Source: Planctomycetota bacterium (lineage in GTDB: Bacteria; Planctomycetota; B15-G4). Taken from it: a stretch of DNA of 64,000 bases. The notes under the pieces were generated by a model. The model worked only from the letters and a program-made list of their open reading frames with translations. It was not told where the DNA came from and did not search any database. Position numbers and translations under genes: made by a program. The stretch spans positions 310,001-374,000 of the forward strand of contig BQJR01000003.1 in the NCBI GenBank assembly GCA_021604805.1, written 5' to 3'. Positions 3,563-63,788 of this stretch are shown here, one piece after another; the stretch's first letter is position 1, and each line of letters opens with the position of its first letter.

Positions 3563-3889
3563 ATGTTCATCGGAAAAGTCGTCGGCACGGTGGTCAGTTC
3601 CGTGAAGGACCCCAAGGTCACCGAGCTCAAGCTGCAGATCGTGCAGGAGCTCGACGAGCACAACGAGCCGCGCGGCAAGTACGTGGTGGCAGCCGACGCG
3701 GTCGGCGCGGGCCAGGGCGACCTGGTGCTCTACGCCAGCGGCAGCTCGGCGCGTCAGACCACGCAGACCGACGGCCGCCCCATCGACGCCGCGATCTTCG
3801 CGATCATCGACAGCTGGGACGTGGACAACGAGCTCGTCTACCAGAAGGAAGGGCTCGAGAGTTTCGACCGCGAGCCCGAAGAGGTCTGA
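3563..3889 (+). CDS. Bacterial microcompartment vertex protein 1 (EutN/CcmL, BMC-P)
   Basis: 108 residues beginning MFIGKVVGTVVSSVKDPKVTE, the classical EutN/CcmL opening, then KLQIVQEL, a central GAGQGDLVLYASGSSAR and PIDAAIFAIIDSW near the end. BMC-P proteins form pentamers that cap the vertices of polyhedral microcompartments. It is the first of three BMC-P genes spaced 4 or fewer bases apart and followed by a class II aldolase, the gene company of the planctomycete/verrucomicrobial microcompartment that breaks down fucose- and rhamnose-derived sugars. The short C-terminal extension after the core is acidic. Confidence 0.93.
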   Translation: MFIGKVVGTVVSSVKDPKVTELKLQIVQELDEHNEPRGKYVVAADAVGAGQGDLVLYASGSSARQTTQTDGRPIDAAIFAIIDSWDVDNELVYQKEGLESFDREPEEV

Positions 3890-3893
3890 GCGC

Positions 3894-4304
3894 GTGCACC
3901 TCGGACGCGTCATCGGTCGCGTGGTCGCCACGCAACGCACACCGGAACTCGACGGCGAGCGCCTGCTGCTCGTGCGCGTGCTCGACGAACACGGCGAGCA
4001 CCCCGATCAAGTGATCGTGGCGTGCGACGTGGTCGACTCGGGCCCCGGCGACCTCGTGCACGTGTGCGACGGCCGCGAGTCCACGCTCGCGCTGCGCCGA
4101 AACTTCGTGCCCATCGACGCGACCATCGTGGGTCACGTGGAAGAGTTCGCGCACACGGGGCCGGGCCCGCAGGTGCACGGCTCGGTGCTGGGCGACGCGC
4201 CGGGCGACACGAAGGCCGGCAAGCCGAAGTCCAAGGCCACGCGCGGCAAGTCGGGCAGCGAGTCCGCTGGCAAGTCGAAGTCCGCGCGGAGCGGCAAGAA
4301 GTGA
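3894..4304 (+). CDS. Bacterial microcompartment vertex protein 2 (EutN/CcmL) with basic tail
   Basis: 136 residues from a GTG start 4 bases after the first pentamer gene. Residues 1-85 are a complete EutN/CcmL domain (MHLGRVIGRVVATQRTPEL, DSGPGDLVHVCDGRES, FVPIDATIVGHVEEF). Beyond about residue 106 the protein carries a 30-residue tail made almost only of Lys, Ser, Gly, Ala and Arg, ending SGKK. Ordinary BMC-P proteins stop near 90-100 residues, so the tail is an addition, perhaps an interaction or cargo-tethering segment. The stop overlaps the GTG of the third pentamer gene (GTGA, 4301-4304). Confidence 0.92.
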   Translation: MHLGRVIGRVVATQRTPELDGERLLLVRVLDEHGEHPDQVIVACDVVDSGPGDLVHVCDGRESTLALRRNFVPIDATIVGHVEEFAHTGPGPQVHGSVLGDAPGDTKAGKPKSKATRGKSGSESAGKSKSARSGKK

Positions 4305-4606
4305 AGCTCGCGCGCGTCGTCGGCACGGTGGTCACGCCGGTGCAACATCCGGCTTATGAAGGGCGACGGCTGCTGGCCGTGCGTCCGATCCAACCCGACG
4401 GCAGCGAGTCGGGCGAACGCATGTTCGTGGCGGTCGACCGCGCGCAGGCCGGCCTGGGCGACACCGTATTGCTGATGGCCGAAGGCAGCTCCGTGCGCGC
4501 CGTGCTCAGCAACGAACACGCCCCCATCCGCTGCGCCGTGGTCGGCGTGGTCGATCAGATCGCCGTGGGCGACGAGATCCTTTTCGACGGCAGCGAGCCG
4601 CTGTAG
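4301..4606 (+). CDS. Bacterial microcompartment vertex protein 3 (EutN/CcmL)
   Basis: 101 residues from a GTG start that overlaps the previous stop by 4 bases. The frame is also open upstream, but the domain begins exactly at this GTG (MKLARVVGTVVTPVQHPAYEG when read as fMet), so the shorter start is right. Core motifs AGLGDTVLLMAEGSSVR and PIRCAVVGVVDQI match EutN/CcmL. With two other pentamers adjacent, the locus follows the three-BMC-P pattern described for planctomycete microcompartments. The three copies differ enough to be separate paralogues rather than recent duplicates. Confidence 0.92.
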   Translation: MKLARVVGTVVTPVQHPAYEGRRLLAVRPIQPDGSESGERMFVAVDRAQAGLGDTVLLMAEGSSVRAVLSNEHAPIRCAVVGVVDQIAVGDEILFDGSEPL

Positions 4607-8103: not shown

Positions 8104-8903
8104 CTCGCGCCCACCGCCAGCGACATGCCGAGCAGCGCCGTGCCGCCGTCGAAGCTGGCCACGGTGAACACGTGATCGAGGCCGCGCACGAAGCCGGCCT
8201 GCTCGAAGCTCGCTTGCCAGAGCGCGCGCAGCACGATCGCGAGCGGGGGCAGGAACACCAATGCCGCGAGGGTCGCACGCAGTTTGGACGACGGCCTGAG
8301 AAGGGGCATGCCAGCTTCCGAGAGTTGGTGACGCTCGCGCTCGTGGTCTTCACGCGCGCCCCGGCGCCACCCGCGACGCAGCGCGAACGCGATCGCGAGC
8401 GCGCCCACCACGCTACCACCGTGTTGCAACAACTTGTACGGACGCAACGGGAAGCCGCCCACGCGCAGCAGCGGCTCACCCAACCACGGGAAGGCGCGCA
8501 CACCCGGATCACCTGCGTGCGTGAAGGCGTCCCAGCTCACATGCGTGAGCGCGCCGAGCAGCAGGGCGCACAGAACGCGCCAACTCGACACACTCGGCAG
8601 CAAAGCGCTCGACCAGCGCTGCGGCAAACGCGCGCGCCACGCACGCGGCGACAGATCCGCGATCAACGGCGCGACCCAAACATGAAAGGCCGCGTAGGCC
8701 AGCGCCCCCACCGGCAAGCAGAACCAGAGCAGTCCCGCAGACGAGTGGCTCTCCGAGCGCCCCACGTTCAGCGGCAGGAAGTACGCCAAGTCGGGGGCGA
8801 CGCTCCCCACCACCAGAGCCGAGAGCGGCAGCTGATTCCGCAACAGCGGGAGCAGCGGCAAGACAGCAGCAGGATGCGCGAGCGTGTGGGGCATGCGCGG
8901 CAT
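8076..8903 (-). CDS. DUF4184-family integral membrane protein
   Basis: 275 residues with about six hydrophobic segments. The opening MPHTLAHPAAVLPLL, the following ALVVGSVAPDLAYFLPL and the LLLGALTHVSWDAFTH segment are hallmarks of DUF4184, which shares its conserved His and Asp residues with the YdjM/LexA-regulated membrane hydrolase-like group. The reaction is not known. Two ATGs (8903 and 8894) are possible; the internal one gives MPHTLAHP, the usual family start, so the first three residues may be untranslated. It is followed at once by the overlapping secreted-protein gene. Confidence 0.75.
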   Translation of the reverse strand: MPRMPHTLAHPAAVLPLLPLLRNQLPLSALVVGSVAPDLAYFLPLNVGRSESHSSAGLLWFCLPVGALAYAAFHVWVAPLIADLSPRAWRARLPQRWSSALLPSVSSWRVLCALLLGALTHVSWDAFTHAGDPGVRAFPWLGEPLLRVGGFPLRPYKLLQHGGSVVGALAIAFALRRGWRRGAREDHERERHQLSEAGMPLLRPSSKLRATLAALVFLPPLAIVLRALWQASFEQAGFVRGLDHVFTVASFDGGTALLGMSLAVGASWRVLRSNR

Positions 8904-8987
8904 GAACCGCTCAGGCCACCGAGGGTGACGCAGCAGCGGAAGGGTCGACCCGGCGGTGAGCGTGGCCGCGGACGTCCCGCGCCCGCG

Positions 8988-10055
8988 TCAGAGGTCGAAG
9001 GGCGTGCTCGGCTGGTTGCCGGCGAAGAAGTTGCCCGTGCCTTCCACGGAGATGGCGTCGCCACCGCTCTTCTTGACCTTGTTGCCGACGAAGCTGCCAT
9101 CGTTGCCGACAGCGCGCAGACCAGCGCCGCCCGTAGCGCTCACCGTGTTGCGCACGACTTGGATGTTGACGGCGTCGGCCGCGATGCCCGAGCCGCCCGT
9201 CTTCTTCACGATGTTGCGCATCACGCGGCTCTCCGACGCGCGCAGGAAGATCCCGTCGACAGCGCTCTGCAGCACGCGGTTGTCGGCGATCGTGTAGAGC
9301 GTGTGCGCCGCGCCGAAGGAACTGCGGATGCCGGTGCCGCACTTCTTGAGCGTGTTGCCGAGCACACGGTGGCCGCCACCGGCGAGCGCGATCCCGATGT
9401 TGGCCACGTCGCGAATCAGGTTGTCGTTGAGCTCCACCTGGCTCGTGGTGCCGCCCAGGAAGATGCCGAAGAGCCCGCCGGTGAACTTGTTGTCGTCCAC
9501 GATGTGCTGCTCGCCGCTCGACACGTTGACGCCCGTGGCCGTGACCTTGAAGCGGTTCTCGGTGATCACCACGGCCTCGCCCCCAGCCACCTGCACACCC
9601 GTGGAACCGCTGTCCACACGGCAGTCGCGCACCGAAGCCTGGGACACGTTGTTGAGGTTGACCGCGATCGTGTTCTCGCGGAACACGCAGTCGCGCACCA
9701 CGAGTCGCTGCACCTGCGTGACCTCGATGGCATCGGCGAACCCTTCGAACTCGAGCGACTCGAACACGACATCAGCGCTGAAGGCGAGCGTGAAGGCAGG
9801 CGCGTTGCCTTCCTCGATCGAGGGCGTGAGGATCACCTTGCCCTGGCCGCGAAAGGTCACGCCCGCGATGGCCGAGAGCGTCACGGCTTCGGCGTAGGTG
9901 CCCTTGGCGATCAGCACCACGTCACCTTCTGCAGCGAGGTCGGCGGCAGCCTGGATCGTGGCGGCCTCCGCGGGCACCTGGATCGTGTCAGCGCGCAGCG
10001 CGCCAGCGAGCGAGAGGCCAACGAAGAAGACGGGCAGCGAGCGAGCGAACAGCAT
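8988..10055 (-). CDS. Secreted right-handed parallel beta-helix protein
   Basis: 355 residues when started at the ATG at 10055, which sits after GGAG and just before a signal peptide (MLFARSLPVFFVGLSLAGALRA). The mature protein begins DTIQVPAEAATIQAAADLAAEGDVV, the standard opening of pectate-lyase-like/NosD-type parallel beta-helix proteins, followed by many 20-25-residue coils with V-x-x-N-x-F/V and G-I/V patterns. No catalytic triad of a polysaccharide lyase can be identified, so it may be a lyase, an epimerase-like protein or a non-enzymatic surface helix. It ends NQPSTPFDL without an anchor. Confidence 0.75.
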   Translation of the reverse strand: MLFARSLPVFFVGLSLAGALRADTIQVPAEAATIQAAADLAAEGDVVLIAKGTYAEAVTLSAIAGVTFRGQGKVILTPSIEEGNAPAFTLAFSADVVFESLEFEGFADAIEVTQVQRLVVRDCVFRENTIAVNLNNVSQASVRDCRVDSGSTGVQVAGGEAVVITENRFKVTATGVNVSSGEQHIVDDNKFTGGLFGIFLGGTTSQVELNDNLIRDVANIGIALAGGGHRVLGNTLKKCGTGIRSSFGAAHTLYTIADNRVLQSAVDGIFLRASESRVMRNIVKKTGGSGIAADAVNIQVVRNTVSATGGAGLRAVGNDGSFVGNKVKKSGGDAISVEGTGNFFAGNQPSTPFDL

Positions 10056-10176
10056 GGAGGCACTCCGGTCGAAGGTGGTTCGCGGGGAGAACGCGGATCC
10101 CCGATCTTCGCGATCCGACCTGTTCACCGCCACCGCTTCTCTGGCGGCGCGTGCGACACGCCCCGGTCCTTCGCGC

Positions 10177-55840: not shown

Positions 55841-57451
55841 TCAGCCTCCCGTGACTGTGCCGAAGCCTGGATCGTAGAGCGGGATCTCGAAGGTGCCGCT
55901 GAGCGTCTGCGTCATCTCGGTCGGGCCGGCGCCCTTCGACACCGTGCCCGTGAAGCTGCCCGTGAAGCAGCCCAGGATCCCGAACTGGTTGTTCGGCGCG
56001 GCGGTGTAGTCGGTGATCGTGACCGACATGCTGGAGTTGAGGTTCTCGTCGAACTTCTGGCTCCAGATCTCCAAGCCGAGCTGCAGCGTGAAGGCCGTGA
56101 TGCCGTCGCCGGAGGGGACTTCGATGTGGTCAAAGGTGGCGGGCGTGGCCGTGGTGCCGGGCTCGAAGCTCACGTTGAACGAGATGACCTGCGCGGGGAA
56201 ACCTTCGCCGCCGTCTTCGGTGCCGGTGGTGAGTCGCACGGTGCCGGGGCCGCCGATGTCGGCGAGCGCGATGCTCTCCTGAGGGTCGCCTTCGAAGGCG
56301 CCGGTCATGCTGCCGATGGCGTCGGTGAACGGTTGGCAGGGCCCGTTGAACACGGGCTCTTCCTCTTGCGAGGGCGCCGTGACCAGGCCACTGAAGCAGA
56401 GGACGGCGGGGCCGTCGCACTCGCCGTCGCTGCCTTCGGGCGTGAAGCGGATCTTGCCGCACACGAAGAGCACCATGGTCTCGTCGTCGATCGACACGAC
56501 TTGCACCGCGATGTCTTCACCCTTCGCGTTGACCCCTGAGGTCCACACGCACTGCGTGCCGTCCTTGGCGGTCTCGGTGTAGAGGATCTGGGCGCCGTCG
56601 TCGGAGAGCGTGAACATGTCGCCCGCTTCGAGGTCGGCGACCAAGCCCGGCATCTGGATGCCGAAGGCCTTGGGCGCTTTCTTCGAGCCGCTCAGCAGAC
56701 CCACGCTGACGGTGTCGGGATCGCCGAGGGCTTCGTCGATGCCGATGAACTTCTTCTTCGCCTTGAAAGGCTTCTGCCCGACGAAGTTGATCACGGCCGA
56801 GAAGCCGCCGACCTTGCCGGTGCTGCCCGTGACTTCGAGTGCGTTCTTGAGCGTGCCGGTGCCGAGACGGTTCTGCAGCGACACGGGCCAGTTGCCGTTG
56901 GCCACCTTCGGCACCTTGAAAGTCACGGCGGTCACGGGATCGGAGCCGCCTTCATCGACCACGGTCACGTCGGTGATCTTGGCCTTCTTGCTGCCCACGA
57001 AGACCTTGTGCGCGCCGACCGTGCCGTAGTCGCGCACCATCATCACGACCTCTTGCTTGGGCGACGCGCTCTCGGGCGCCACCGAATCGACCGTCGGCGG
57101 CACGAGATCGATCGTGTCCTCCGACTCACTCACGATGTTCTTCTTGACCTTCAGGCCGATGCTGAACGTGCCTTCGAAGGCCTTCTTGAGCGTGACGTCC
57201 ACGTAGTCACTCTCGACTCCTTCGCCGAGGGTCCCGCTGCCCACGACCTTCAGCTTGGTCTTCTTGGCGAGCTCGCCGTCTTGCACGAGCACGAGCTTGG
57301 GCTTGCTGCCGAGGTCGGTGCCGAACACACGGATGACGTCGCCGAGCGTGGCGGTGTCGAGGTCGATGCTCTCGACTTCCTGGGCAGCGCTGAGGGGGGT
57401 CAAGGAGGCGATGGCGAGCGCGAGGCCGGCCAAGAATCGTGGTGCAAACAT
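55841..57451 (-). CDS. Secreted protein with IPT/TIG-like domains
   Basis: 536 residues from ATG 57451, which has a strong AAGGAGA about 7 bases upstream. Signal peptide RFLAGLALAIASLTPLSAAQ. Residues 25-115 and 115-210 look like two IPT/TIG-type beta domains (VIRVFGTDLGSKPKLVLVQDGE; PTVDSVAPESASPKQEVVMMVRDYG; VFVGSKKAKITDV). The rest is a beta-rich region with a GPGTVRLTTGTEDGGEG segment. It ends FGTVTGG with no anchor. No enzyme motif. Probably a surface or secreted binding protein. Confidence 0.7.
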   Translation of the reverse strand: MFAPRFLAGLALAIASLTPLSAAQEVESIDLDTATLGDVIRVFGTDLGSKPKLVLVQDGELAKKTKLKVVGSGTLGEGVESDYVDVTLKKAFEGTFSIGLKVKKNIVSESEDTIDLVPPTVDSVAPESASPKQEVVMMVRDYGTVGAHKVFVGSKKAKITDVTVVDEGGSDPVTAVTFKVPKVANGNWPVSLQNRLGTGTLKNALEVTGSTGKVGGFSAVINFVGQKPFKAKKKFIGIDEALGDPDTVSVGLLSGSKKAPKAFGIQMPGLVADLEAGDMFTLSDDGAQILYTETAKDGTQCVWTSGVNAKGEDIAVQVVSIDDETMVLFVCGKIRFTPEGSDGECDGPAVLCFSGLVTAPSQEEEPVFNGPCQPFTDAIGSMTGAFEGDPQESIALADIGGPGTVRLTTGTEDGGEGFPAQVISFNVSFEPGTTATPATFDHIEVPSGDGITAFTLQLGLEIWSQKFDENLNSSMSVTITDYTAAPNNQFGILGCFTGSFTGTVSKGAGPTEMTQTLSGTFEIPLYDPGFGTVTGG

Positions 57452-57658
57452 GCTGCGGTCTCCTTCATCGAGGGCGCCGGTGCGCGCCGCCGAGAGGCGT
57501 GGGATCTGGGGCCGCCCAGACATCGGGACGGCGCTTCGAAAACCCCTTCGCTGGAGCGGGACCGCGGGGGACAGGAAAACTCGGGAGCGCAACGAACGGC
57601 CCTCGGATCGTTGGCTGCGACGCCCGAAACCAGACCACTCAGCAACCTGCTGACGGAC

Positions 57659-58789
57659 TCAGGCCATCGAGCGCTCGCGTCCACCGCTGTCGAGGCGCTT
57701 GGCCAGCATGCGGTGGAAATGGTGCACGCCGAGCTCGTGCGCGGGCGCGTACCGCCCGCGGCCGTAGAGTCGCGCACGCAGCCCCTCGGCCACCGCTTCC
57801 ACGACCTCTTCGTCTTGCGCCTCCACGACATCGAGCGGACCGCCGGCGCCGCGCGAGCGCAGGCTCGGCTCGGCCACGAAGGGCAGGAAGCGCACGCGCG
57901 TGCGTCGCGGACCGAGCGGCTCGACAACGTTGAGCGACAGCCCCCACGGGTACACGTTGAGCATCGTGCCGGGCAGCAACCACAGGTAGTAGGCGGCCAG
58001 GCGCGCGTCGGCGTCGGGGTGATCGGCGGGCAGCTCGAGCACGACGTCACCCTCGGCCGCGCGCGCGGTCTGCAGCACGCCATGTGGCAGCAGCTCGGTG
58101 GCGTAGCCGCCGGGATCGAGGACGCCCGCGAGCTCGGGATGCACGAAGGGGATGTGGAAGCCTTCGAGGTAGTTGTCCACGTAGAGCGCCCAGTGTGCCT
58201 CGATCTCGAAGTCGGCGGCGCTGTCGGCGTCGAAACAATGCGGGCGCGCGAGCAAGGGCGCGAGACGTTCGGCCCCCGCGCTCCAAGCGCTGAAGTCGAC
58301 CTCCGGCGCGAGACTGGTGAAGCGCACGGGGCCGAGGCGCTCCAAGGGCAAGGCCGGCAAGTTGTCGCTGGCGGACGGGAAAGCCTGCGCGCCTTCGAAG
58401 CCGGGAGCCGCGATGAGCTCGCCGTTCAGCCCGAAGCGCCGACCGTGGTAGCGGCAACGCAGCTGCGGGCCGGGGTTGTGTTCGGCGCAGAGCAGATGAC
58501 CGCGGTGTGTGCAGACGTTGCTGAGCAAGCGTTCGCGTGTGTTCGCCGCGCCCTCTGCGAGCAGGCTGTGCAGCAGCGGTTCGTCGAGGCTGCCGGGAAG
58601 CAAGCGGAAGGGGCGCGCGCCCGACGCGCTCCCGGCGTGGGCCGTGGCCAGCTCGGGCAAAGCCTGCCACGTGGCAGCGAAGACGCGCTCCAGCTGCAGC
58701 GCGTAGAAAGCGGGATCGCCGTAGAAGGCGGCGGGCGGGGTCCACGCGCGGCGGATGTCCGCGTCGATGTCGAGGCGTAGGGGATTCAT
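57659..58789 (-). CDS. Rieske non-haem iron oxygenase, alpha-subunit type
   Basis: 376 residues, no signal peptide. The Rieske [2Fe-2S] site is complete: Cys93-x-His95 (CTHRG) and Cys112-x2-His115 (CRYHG). The mononuclear iron site shows in DNYLEGFHIPFVHPEL with His212 and His217, with Asp205 as bridge residue. Homologous proteins include choline monooxygenase-like and other hydroxylases of quaternary amines and aromatics. No ferredoxin or reductase gene is present. Its ATG overlaps the stop of the fifth lipoprotein gene (ATGA, 58786-58789), so it is the last gene of a lipoprotein operon. Confidence 0.92.
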   Translation of the reverse strand: MNPLRLDIDADIRRAWTPPAAFYGDPAFYALQLERVFAATWQALPELATAHAGSASGARPFRLLPGSLDEPLLHSLLAEGAANTRERLLSNVCTHRGHLLCAEHNPGPQLRCRYHGRRFGLNGELIAAPGFEGAQAFPSASDNLPALPLERLGPVRFTSLAPEVDFSAWSAGAERLAPLLARPHCFDADSAADFEIEAHWALYVDNYLEGFHIPFVHPELAGVLDPGGYATELLPHGVLQTARAAEGDVVLELPADHPDADARLAAYYLWLLPGTMLNVYPWGLSLNVVEPLGPRRTRVRFLPFVAEPSLRSRGAGGPLDVVEAQDEEVVEAVAEGLRARLYGRGRYAPAHELGVHHFHRMLAKRLDSGGRERSMA

Positions 58790-59181
58790 GGTTCGGACGC
58801 AGCCTCCTCACGTTCGCGCGCGGAACGCGTCTCCTCGCGCAGGCCGAAGGAGAGCAGCACGCCCTGGGTGTCGAAGAGCAGCGCGAGGCGGTCGCTGCCG
58901 CCTTCGCCCTGCGAGTTCTCGTAGATCGCGAAGAGCGGAATCAGTAACAGGCGCGAGGAGTGACTCTCACTGCGGCGCCAGACATAGAGGTCACCCGAGA
59001 AGGTACGACGCAGGCTGGCGGGCGCGCCGAGCAACTCCAGCGCATCGGGCAGGGTGCTCACGCCGGGTTGCAGCGCGCTGAGTTCGGAGGCGCTCGGGAG
59101 CGCACGTCCCGCGATGCGGTGTTCGATGGCGCAAGCGCCGAGCCCTGCGAAGCAGGCCGCGAAGAGGAGCGCGCGTCTCAT
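58786..59181 (-). CDS. BamE/SmpA-like small lipoprotein 5
   Basis: 131 residues. Lipobox GLGAC with Cys17. Pattern after the Cys: CAIEHRIAGRALPSASELSAL, then GVSTLPDALELLGAPA, a DLYVWRRSES strand, a hydrophobic RLLLIPLFAIYEN strand and DRLALLFDTQGVL. The order resembles BamE/SmpA domains (G-x-x-x-x-x-V/A-x-x-x-L-G-x-P followed by a W-containing strand and FD-x-x-G-x-L). It is the fifth similar lipoprotein in a row, coupled to the fourth upstream and to the Rieske gene downstream. Confidence 0.7.
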   Translation of the reverse strand: MRRALLFAACFAGLGACAIEHRIAGRALPSASELSALQPGVSTLPDALELLGAPASLRRTFSGDLYVWRRSESHSSRLLLIPLFAIYENSQGEGGSDRLALLFDTQGVLLSFGLREETRSAREREEAASEP

Positions 59182-59813
59182 GGCTGCGACTCCGTGACAG
59201 AGGCAGCGGGCTTCGCGTGCGTGTCGAGCGGCGCGTTGTTGGAGGACGAGTCGCTCGCGGCTGCCGCGCCGCCAGCGCCCCAGCGCTGACCATCGATCGC
59301 GGCGTGGCGCAGCTTGCCGGCGCGATCGAAACTGAGCATCAGGCTGCGGTCGCGCTGATCGCCGTCGAGGCGGCCGTAGAGCGGCAGCGCCACGGGTGCC
59401 ACGAAGCCGGAGTGCAAGTTGAGCGTGTCGAGCTCGATCTCGCGCCAGCGGTACACGAACACGTCGCCGTCGACCAAGCCGAGCACTTCGCCGGGCGGGC
59501 CGAAGCGCTGCAAGGCCTCGGCTTGCGTGGCGGGCAACGCGGCCGTGTCGTCGAAGACCGGGCGCTCCCCCCAGGCGAACGCGCGATCCGACACGACGGC
59601 TGGCGTGACGCGCGCGAGCGCGTCGTTGAGCGCCACGATGCTGCAGGCCGGCGCGAACGCGAGCGCGAAACAGGCGGCGAGCGCTGCGCGGGTGGCCCAC
59701 GGAACACGCAGCGCGAGGTGCGAGCGCTGCCGACGCGTCTCGCGCGCGGGGCAGTCAGTCTGCCGCGGCACATCGTGCGCAGGGAGGCGATCGCGAGCGT
59801 GAGCGTGAGTCAT
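59178..59813 (-). CDS. BamE/SmpA-like small lipoprotein 4
   Basis: 211 residues with a 45-residue basic N-terminal extension before the signal helix (TRAALAACFALAFAPAC, lipid Cys57). After the Cys an unusual insert (residues about 70-90) precedes ATQAEALQRFGPPGEVLGLVDGDVFVYRWREIELD, the common core, then VALPLYGRLDG and SLMLSFDRAGKLRHAAID. The C-terminal 35 residues are Ala/Ser/Asn-rich. The upstream overlap with lipoprotein 3 is ATGA at 59810-59813. A later start shortening the N-terminus cannot be excluded. Confidence 0.7.
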   Translation of the reverse strand: MTHAHARDRLPAHDVPRQTDCPARETRRQRSHLALRVPWATRAALAACFALAFAPACSIVALNDALARVTPAVVSDRAFAWGERPVFDDTAALPATQAEALQRFGPPGEVLGLVDGDVFVYRWREIELDTLNLHSGFVAPVALPLYGRLDGDQRDRSLMLSFDRAGKLRHAAIDGQRWGAGGAAAASDSSSNNAPLDTHAKPAASVTESQP

Positions 59814-60226
59814 GGCGCCTCCTCGCGGAAGGCCATGTGCTTGAGCACGTCGTCGGCGTCGAACCAGAGCACGAGGGTACGGCGCGTGATGCGCGTGTCG
59901 CCCCAAGCGAAGAGCACGGGCAGGAAGAACACCGAGGCATCGACGTTCACTTCTTGCCAGGCGAGCACATCGCGATCCACGCGGCCGGGCGTGGTGGGTT
60001 CTTCGAGCAAGTCGCCGAGGCGCACCGCGGAGCGCAGCAGGTCCACGCGATACAGACCGCTGGGCGGGCCGAGCGCATCGAGCGCCTGTTGACGCGTGGT
60101 CCGGCCGCGCTGCAAGCCCGCGATCGCCGCGTCGGACACGGGCACGCCCGCGTGATCGCTGAGCACGATGCAGCTCGGCGACGCGCAGGCCGCGAGCACC
60201 ACGATCCACAGCCAACGTGCGCTCAT
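59810..60226 (-). CDS. BamE/SmpA-like small lipoprotein 3
   Basis: 138 residues from ATG 60226, with lipobox VVLAAC at Cys14. Core: DHAGVPVSDAAIAGLQRGRTTRQQALDALGPPSG, then RDVLAWQEVNVDASVFFLPVLFAWGD and TLVLWFDADDVLKHMAF. The WFDADDVL end corresponds to the FD-x-x-G-x-L of the other members. Coupled by ATGA at both ends. Confidence 0.7.
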   Translation of the reverse strand: MSARWLWIVVLAACASPSCIVLSDHAGVPVSDAAIAGLQRGRTTRQQALDALGPPSGLYRVDLLRSAVRLGDLLEEPTTPGRVDRDVLAWQEVNVDASVFFLPVLFAWGDTRITRRTLVLWFDADDVLKHMAFREEAP

Positions 60227-60705
60227 GACGTGCTCGCCACGGCGGCCACGCGGGCCTGGTCGTCGAACCACACGACCAACATGTCGTGCTCGGTGTCGAT
60301 GTCGAACCACGCGAAGAGCAGCAGCCAGGTGCCGTCGAGCGCAAAACGATCGAGCTGCCAGGTGAAAGCGTGGTCGACGCGCCGGGCGACATCCAGCGCG
60401 TCGCTCAGGCGCACGCGTTCGTCGAGCAGCAGCGCCGTTTCTTCGGCGCTGAGGAACTCGTCGGGCGGACCGAGCAGCGCCAGCGTGTCGTCGAGCGTGC
60501 TCACGCCGATCTGCAACTGCTGCACGGCCGACGCTTCGATGGGCGCGCCGACGCGACCGCGCGCGCCCACGTAGAGGCAGCCCGGCAGCGCGGCGATCAC
60601 GAAAGTCAGCGCCAGCGCGCAGCGGCGCGCGGAGCCGCCCCCACCGTTCACGTCCGTGCCGCGCGCTCTGTTCATCACGCGCCCGTCCATCAAGCGCCCG
60701 TTCAT
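60223..60705 (-). CDS. BamE/SmpA-like small lipoprotein 2
   Basis: 160 residues from the ATG at 60705, which shares a base with the stop of lipoprotein 1 (TGATG). Two more in-frame ATGs at 60690 and 60675 sit in a 15-base tandem repeat, so the true start is ambiguous. Signal ALALTFVIAALPGC (lipobox Cys43). Core: VGAPIEASAVQQLQIGVSTLDDTLALLGPPDEFLS, then HAFTWQLDRFALDGTWLLLFAWFDID and DMLVVWFDDQARVAAV. It is the member with the clearest LLGPPDEF. Confidence 0.7.
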   Translation of the reverse strand: MNGRLMDGRVMNRARGTDVNGGGGSARRCALALTFVIAALPGCLYVGARGRVGAPIEASAVQQLQIGVSTLDDTLALLGPPDEFLSAEETALLLDERVRLSDALDVARRVDHAFTWQLDRFALDGTWLLLFAWFDIDTEHDMLVVWFDDQARVAAVASTS

Positions 60706-60715
60706 CAAGCGCCCC
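60671..60715 (-). repeat. Three tandem 15-base repeats carrying in-frame start codons
   Basis: Read on the minus strand the three imperfect copies each contain an ATG followed by GACGGGCGC or a close variant, giving MNGRL, MDGRV and MNRAR. Since 15 is a multiple of 3, gain or loss of a copy keeps the frame. They cover the start of lipoprotein 2. Confidence 0.7.
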
Positions 60716-61166
60716 CGCCCACGCGTCGCGCGGCGCCGGTCAAGCGCCCGGCCTCGTCGAAGCGCAACTCGAGGCGGTCCAGTTCGGCGTGCTCGTGACG
60801 CCAGCTGAAGAAGTTGAGGAAGGGCAGGAACACGAAGCGCCGGTCGCGCGACCGCTCCTGCGTGTAGCTCAGCGTGTCGGGCAGGAGCAGACGGCCGTCG
60901 TCGGCCACGCGCGGTGCGAGCGGCTCCAGGCGGCGCGCCTGCATCGGGCGCGGCGCGCGGTACTCGTCGGACGGACCGAAGGCTCGCAGCACCTCGGCAC
61001 GCGAGGCCGAACGCGCGAGCAGAGACGCCACGCTCTCAGCGCTCGGCAAGTCGCGACCGGCTTGCCGCTCGATCACGGTGCACGCACCGCAGAGCAGCGC
61101 TCCGCACAAGACGACCCTTCCGAGCACTCTTCGCACGCGTCGTTCCAAGAGAGGAAGGCGCATCAT
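60705..61166 (-). CDS. BamE/SmpA-like small lipoprotein 1
   Basis: 153 residues; tandem ATGs at 61166 and 61163. Signal VLGRVVLCGALLCGAC with lipid Cys29. Core: RQAGRDLPSAESVASLLARSASRAEVLRAFGPSDEYRAP, then RRFVFLPFLNFFSWRHEHAELDRLELRFDEAGRLTGAARR. It is the first gene of the six-gene operon that ends with the Rieske oxygenase. A TATGAT on the minus strand (61167-61162) overlaps the first ATG, so if it is a -10 box, translation must start further in, perhaps at the TTG six codons later. Confidence 0.7.
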   Translation of the reverse strand: MMRLPLLERRVRRVLGRVVLCGALLCGACTVIERQAGRDLPSAESVASLLARSASRAEVLRAFGPSDEYRAPRPMQARRLEPLAPRVADDGRLLLPDTLSYTQERSRDRRFVFLPFLNFFSWRHEHAELDRLELRFDEAGRLTGAARRVGGGA

Positions 61167-62801: not shown

Positions 62802-63788
62802 ATGAGCACCACCGAGCTTCCCGAGCCCACGTCCGGCAAGCCCACCCAGGCGCCGACCTCCACGCCTTCCGACACGCCTACTGAGGCGGGCGAAGCGGCG
62901 AACGCAACAGGCGCGGCGAAGGCGGCCACGAGCGGCCCCCTGCGCGTGCGCCTCGCCGACTTCGAGAAGCGTCACATGGCGGGTGCAGGCAACTGGCTGT
63001 ACGAGATCCCGTGGCAAGGCGGCAAGGCCGTGCTCAAGGTGTACTTCGGCAGCCGCAACCCGCTGCTCCACGTGCGCAAGACGATTAGCAACGCGATCTT
63101 CTCCGGCCGCAGCTCGCACATGCCGCGCGCGCGTTGCCAGATCGAGAAGGAGTGCCTGGAGACGTGGTCGAAGCACGGCTTCGAGATCTTCGGCTACCAC
63201 CCCGACGTCATCTTCGAAGACCTTCCCGAAGGCGGCTACCTGCTCTTCGACTTCACCACCGGCACGCACTTCCGCGAGTACTACAAAGACACGTCGATCC
63301 CGATCGACGAGCGCATGGCCACCTGGCGGCGCTTCCTCAAGATCTGGCATCGGCGTCACGCGCTCGCGGTGCAACACAACGAGCCGCGCCTGATCCACGA
63401 GAACGGCGACGTGAAGCACGTGCTCATCCAAGGCGAAGGCGAAGACCAACACTTCGTGTCCTTCGACTTCGAGATCATCTTCCGCTCGCGCGACCTGCGC
63501 GACCAGGTCGGGCGCGAGATCCTGGCCTACCTGCGCTCGTGCGGGAAGTTCTTCGGCGAAGAGATCTACCAGGTGATGCTCGCCGAAACCGTGAAGCACT
63601 ACCCCGACCCGTCGATGCTGGTGGCGGCTTGGGAACACGGCTGGCGCAACCGCAACCCGCTGATCCGTTTCGCGCGCGTGCTCGACCGCGCGCTGCGCCC
63701 CGGCAAGCGCAAGCGCTTCAGCAAGTACAGCGTGGCCGCGGAACTGAAGCAGAAGCTCGACGCGGCCTCGCTCACGAACCCGAGTTGA
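62802..63788 (+). CDS. Kinase-fold protein, LPS-kinase (InaA/KdkA)-like, atypical
   Basis: 328 residues; the first 45 are Thr/Ser/Pro/Ala-rich linker. The core opens with GAGNWLYEIPWQGGKAVLKVYFGSR, where Lys near residue 79 matches the ATP-binding VAIK lysine. The catalytic loop reads LIHENGDVKHVLI and the metal-binding motif is DFE, so the Asp is retained but the HxDxxxxN Asn is missing. This suggests a divergent lipopolysaccharide or sugar kinase, possibly with weak or no activity. ATG 62802; two CATAAT-like boxes lie upstream at 62735-62740 and 62776-62781. The next kinase gene follows 10 bases later. Confidence 0.7.
   Translation: MSTTELPEPTSGKPTQAPTSTPSDTPTEAGEAANATGAAKAATSGPLRVRLADFEKRHMAGAGNWLYEIPWQGGKAVLKVYFGSRNPLLHVRKTISNAIFSGRSSHMPRARCQIEKECLETWSKHGFEIFGYHPDVIFEDLPEGGYLLFDFTTGTHFREYYKDTSIPIDERMATWRRFLKIWHRRHALAVQHNEPRLIHENGDVKHVLIQGEGEDQHFVSFDFEIIFRSRDLRDQVGREILAYLRSCGKFFGEEIYQVMLAETVKHYPDPSMLVAAWEHGWRNRNPLIRFARVLDRALRPGKRKRFSKYSVAAELKQKLDAASLTNPS

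Follow-up and report, generated by a model that had tools for sequence, protein, structure and literature searches.

A tandem array of BamE-like lipoproteins of two types in Planctomycetota, overlapped by a Rieske oxygenase gene in one genome

Main finding

Within the window, i.e., the whole stretch of 64,000 nucleotides of planctomycetal DNA analyzed here, five lipoprotein genes follow one another in tandem and overlap a sixth gene coding for a Rieske oxygenase. We propose that genes 1 to 5 represent an expanded form of a lipoprotein operon of the Planctomycetota which is built from two protein types, A and B, that the set may act at the outer membrane where A and B would bind each other, and that the Rieske oxygenase is independent of it; we believe in this reading as a whole about as much as we doubt it. 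The computed support consists of the order of type A followed by type B, the near-zero spacing of the genes, the orthology of the five genes with an array of another genus, the invariant cysteine and the BamE-like predicted fold.

The six-gene cluster

An earlier note on this DNA had described six overlapping minus-strand genes, five for lipoproteins and one for a Rieske oxygenase. We confirmed the open reading frames and found overlaps of one or four bases at all five junctions. As read directly from the sequence, gene 1 and gene 2 are joined by TGATG (1-base overlap) and the other four junctions are ATGA (4-base overlap). In the following list, G005 denotes a genome from another genus of the same family.

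60705..61166, minus strand: gene 1, open reading frame of 153 aa, type B lipoprotein (P0001), orthologous to position 1 of the G005 array (z 27)
60223..60705, minus strand: gene 2, open reading frame of 160 aa, type A lipoprotein (P0002) of the type A clade, orthologous to position 2 of the G005 array (z 41)
59810..60226, minus strand: gene 3, open reading frame of 138 aa, type A lipoprotein (P0003), predicted structure with BamE as top Foldseek matches
59178..59813, minus strand: gene 4, open reading frame of 211 aa, type B lipoprotein (P0004), orthologous to position 4 of the G005 array (z 26)
58786..59181, minus strand: gene 5, open reading frame of 131 aa, type B lipoprotein (P0005), orthologous to position 5 of the G005 array (z 41)
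57659..58789, minus strand: gene 6, open reading frame of 376 aa, alpha subunit of a Rieske oxygenase (P0006), PF00355 with 30.9 bits and PF00848 with 74.9 bits

The G005 orthologue of gene 1 scores best with the type B profile. GC3 is uniform and coding-like across all six genes (0.81–0.90), and a scan for promoters and terminators gave no useful signal. Each of the genes 1 to 5 encodes a hydrophobic N-terminal stretch, and when the window proteins are aligned with their relatives the lipid-type cysteine never varies (13/13 type A and 13/13 type B sequences); gene 1 has an atypical lipobox, LLCGAC. The plan which all five proteins were said to share is clear in genes 2, 3, and 5, where the G-x-x-T ... 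L-G-P-P core is readily seen. Genes 1 and 4 have it in degenerate form, gene 4 without the glycine of GxxT and with a long C-terminal tail of low complexity. Some pairs within the window show very little similarity, for example gene 2 and gene 4 (z 0.8).

The cluster is flanked by genes for a 560-aa protein (55841-57523, minus strand) and a 328-aa protein which is kinase-like by eye (62802-63788, plus strand), both without a Pfam match. Elsewhere in the window, three small tandem genes resembling by eye the EutN/CcmL microcompartment vertex proteins lie beside a 289-aa gene (3563-4606, plus strand).

Fold of the lipoproteins

When the window proteins were searched singly against Pfam and NCBIfam, none of genes 1 to 5 scored above the cut-off. 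Gene 2 (14.0 bits) and gene 3 (16.8 bits) match PF04355 below its cut-off of 23.2 bits, and no other lipoprotein of the window touches this family. With profiles of type A and type B, built from the window proteins together with their relatives, searches of the PDB rank BamE-type chains first (E 5e-4 to 1e-3), and PF04355 matches 11 of the 13 type A members and 5 of the 13 type B members (best E 7e-7). AlphaFold models of gene 5 and gene 3 (mean pLDDT 87.3 and 82.5) have two helices followed by three strands, and in Foldseek BamE chains of BAM complexes occupy the top seven places for gene 5 and the top five for gene 3, with a probability of 1.00. The next match for gene 5 is OsmE (4dm5), and the TpgA-type complex 9vnj is among the matches of both models. 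With BamE leading both the profile searches of the PDB and the matches of the two models, a BamE-like fold of the lipoprotein family is well supported at the level of profiles and models. The E-values of the BamE matches are modest (3e-3 to 3e-2) and the rmsd large, so that they indicate a kinship at the fold level and are no proof of BamE function; we regard the five lipoproteins as predicted kin of BamE and do not file them as BamE proper. The comparison with SmpA_OmlA and the structure prediction which the earlier note had suggested gave BamE-like family profiles and similar, BamE-like models for genes 3 and 5. Its statement that BamE/SmpA domains normally occur once per genome had to be given up: BamE can be accompanied by relatives of the OsmE type, of which P. 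aeruginosa has two (PMC3359395), and the source genome has no Pfam-detectable BamE, as a whole-genome search with PF04355 at E up to 1 returned nothing.

BamE (SmpA/OmlA, PF04355), a lipoprotein of the BAM complex of proteobacteria, is the best profile and fold match of the family and shares with it the lipid cysteine and two short helices with the G-x-x-T...LG-x-P core, which are followed by three strands. The family differs from BamE in that its members singly stay below the Pfam cut-off, in the longer insert which type A has before the strands and in the presence of 2–5 different copies per operon with no known link to BamA. The BamE-like paralogues OsmE and TpgA (N-terminal domain) come after BamE in the fold comparison, and their sequence kinship to the window lipoproteins is found only at the profile level. 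OsmE sets a precedent for several BamE-like proteins per cell, but we know of no directional A-B pair in one operon among the OsmE/TpgA-type proteins.

Conservation of the lipoprotein operon

A match to the family at E up to 0.001 was found in 85 of 392 sampled Planctomycetota genomes, 26 of them, in about 20 families, with E below 1e-20. As only 85 of the 392 genomes have it, the family is no essential part of BAM. A search across phyla covered 23 genomes and detected the family only in three Planctomycetota genomes; in this small sample it was absent from all genomes of other phyla.

Among the 31 loci outside the window there are 26 arrays with both types, and in each of the 26 the type A gene or genes are immediately followed by a type B gene in the same orientation. 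Type A comes first in 25 of them, the exception being G005, whose array starts with an extra type B gene like that of the window. The median gap in these arrays is 4 bp; the copy number of the lipoproteins varies between 1 and 5. The loci were found via the type A profile, and hence the presence of A is selected while the presence and the direction of B are not. All type A genes fall into one clade (support 0.967) with the later genes outside of it; the type A and type B scores of the middle gene are equal in the arrays of L188 and L189. The directional A-then-B arrays together with the single type A clade suggest an A-B pair as the ancestral plan, and the five-gene set of the window would thus read B-A-A-B-B. 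No BamA gene was noticed adjoining any array. We found no paper on tandem A/B BamE-like lipoprotein operons in Planctomycetota in the open-access literature.

Four type B variants of 213–228 aa have an extra N-terminal region (CG..HDK.IGPISPAG) before the BamE-like part (L129:8790-9476, L128:8719-9405, L187:3654-4325, and L189:7016-7657). In two loci the array lies among genes which by eye resemble those for a LolA-like protein, an MMPL-type exporter and a ketosynthase, as in aryl-polyene-type clusters (L129:2840-6758; L189:959-4131 and 8120-10110).

In G005 five lipoprotein genes stand in the same order as in the window (L124:9703-11867), and no Rieske gene lies beside them. Every window protein matches its positional counterpart in G005 best, with scores far above chance (z 26–41), the only close second match being that of gene 4 with G005 position 5 (z 22). 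From this position-by-position orthology we conclude that the five-fold array is older than the split of both genera, and a recent local tandem amplification was rejected on the same ground. The array is patchy within the family, since it is missing from four other genomes of the window's family. The five diverged paralogues pointed out at the outset are therefore old and of distinct types, with order and number kept in another genus, and because of this conservation one may reasonably suppose that the non-identical paralogues act together as a set. The earlier note had gone further and suggested an envelope complex of such paralogues plus a hydroxylase, as well as a scan of planctomycete genomes for the same six-gene order; the five lipoprotein genes are kept in order in G005, but the Rieske gene is unlinked elsewhere.

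Each lipoprotein could instead be an independent accessory of the OsmE or TpgA kind with its own client, the tandem order arising from duplication and shared regulation without any complex. The fold matches to OsmE (4dm5, next after BamE for gene 5) and to 9vnj in both models are in line with this, as are the existence of OsmE-type duplicates and the variable copy number of the arrays. The fixed order of A and B with near-zero spacing in about 20 families and the orthology at five positions, however, fit stoichiometric partners better, and we see independent accessories as possible but on the unlikely side.

Tandem diverged paralogues are also typical of immunity banks. We think it improbable that the five lipoproteins form such a bank, with BamE-like immunity proteins against periplasm- or lipid-acting toxins, although membrane-anchored immunity proteins of the BamE-like superfamily are known from the lipocone toxin systems (PMC12419801). 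Unlike fast-shuffling banks, the array keeps order and identity position by position between genera with one-to-one orthology, and no toxin gene was spotted on visual inspection of the surroundings of the arrays; a Pfam search of the window flanks recognized none either, and PADLOC gave no match.

The Rieske oxygenase gene

Gene 6 is full-length and has the cluster ligands C93, H95, C112, and H115, the mononuclear iron ligands H212, H217, and D326 and the bridging Glu E209; each of the cluster and iron-site ligands is present in 98–100% of 61 sequences. No reductase gene adjoins gene 6, and a search of the 89%-complete assembly with PF00970 (reductase domain) gave no match. Its description as a complete Rieske oxygenase with no reductase gene beside it was correct. 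The closest solved relative is the carnitine monooxygenase CntA of Group V (E 1.7e-15), which has the same metal ligands including the bridging Glu, and against GbcA gene 6 reaches 50 bits with a cut-off of 670 bits. CntA and Stc2 have a pair of cysteines, Cys206/Cys209, beside the mononuclear iron, which is present in some Group V members (PMC10952381). Where these enzymes have Cys-X-X-Cys, gene 6 has Gly210/Ile213, with Gly in 61/61 sequences, and it also differs from CntA in having no adjacent reductase. Given this replacement of the cysteine pair, the proposed hydroxylation of a quaternary amine is not supported. Records with relatives of gene 6 are named Planctomycetota, Acidobacteria, myxobacteria, Bacteroidota, and marine group II archaea, and the neighboring genes differ between the relatives.

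When 109 Rieske loci (1.25 Mb) were searched in six frames, neither type of lipoprotein turned up, whereas 29/29 control arrays were recovered in this way; conversely, none of 32 lipoprotein loci contains a Rieske gene. Eleven other genomes hold both, either on separate contigs or with neither inside the loci of the other (G005, G008, G011, G014, G016, G029, G042, G056, G397, G399, and G412). The Rieske protein is more distant (33–36% identity) in G005, G011, G016, G029, and G042, so that the cleanest unlinked cases are G008, G014, G056, G397, G399, and G412. Linkage to the Rieske gene as a conserved trait was therefore rejected, and with it the claim that the lipoproteins are locked to the oxygenase. 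The outcomes named beforehand as speaking against the whole proposal were unrelated folds, or a broken order with an unlinked Rieske gene; its lipoprotein half came through and its Rieske half is refuted. On present evidence the overlap is an arrangement private to the source genome, and the Rieske gene is a widespread stand-alone gene which is joined to the array only there. For this reason overlapping gene starts alone do not prove a shared pathway. The Rieske gene is probably co-transcribed with the array by accident of position and without a functional tie.

It is highly improbable that lipoproteins and oxygenase form one functional unit in which the enzyme modifies a lipid or quaternary amine handled by the lipoproteins: genes 5 and 6 overlap by ATGA, which implies that their translation is coupled in the source genome, but the 109 Rieske loci and the 32 lipoprotein loci lack the respective partner, the five-gene array of G005 does without a Rieske gene and the CntA-type cysteine pair is missing from gene 6.

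A possible role at the outer membrane

In five arrays the type B protein is extended at its C-terminus by a conserved, barrel-like domain of about 220 residues, the last two of which are KF or SF:

L198:5323-6426, type B with barrel-like fusion
L199:7038-8087, type B with barrel-like fusion
L200:3811-4827, type B with barrel-like fusion
L203:1365-2417, type B with barrel-like fusion
L204:8083-9084, type B with barrel-like fusion

The fusion domain has weak Pfam matches to outer-membrane barrels (PagL, porin), and a PDB profile search with the alignment of the fusions matched no solved structure. Judged from its sequence the domain is a probable outer-membrane barrel, and this would place the A-B pair at the outer membrane. 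The source genome encodes a BamA-like protein with five POTRA matches about 200 kb from the array.

According to the reading we prefer, the products of genes 1 to 5 would undergo export and lipidation and stay at the outer membrane, where A and B would bind each other and the extra copies would add further non-identical subunits. For outer-membrane proteins the set would then probably play the part of an adaptor or chaperone, be it together with BamA or on particular clients. Most likely it would help the assembly or stability of outer-membrane proteins, with the extra copies broadening the range of partners. The Rieske oxygenase would work independently as a soluble enzyme, its gene having arrived at the operon's 3′ end in the source lineage.

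BamB, BamC, and BamE have been traced to particular proteobacterial lineages, and other lineages are expected to use lipoproteins of their own (PMC3359395). One could go further and suppose that an obligate heteromer of two BamE-fold types, sometimes with five subunits or fused to a barrel, replaces BamE or serves a dedicated class of clients and is a lineage-specific accessory of outer-membrane assembly in Planctomycetota, which we regard as rather doubtful. We found little in the literature on how Planctomycetota build their outer membrane, and the conserved operon of two BamE-fold types with its barrel-like fusions offers a concrete set of genes for deletion and pull-down experiments.

In four loci the A-B pair lies just downstream of two small genes which by eye resemble those for the molybdopterin synthase subunits MoaE and MoaD (L190:8372-9122, L198:4169-4884, L199:8555-9215, and L200:5351-6053).
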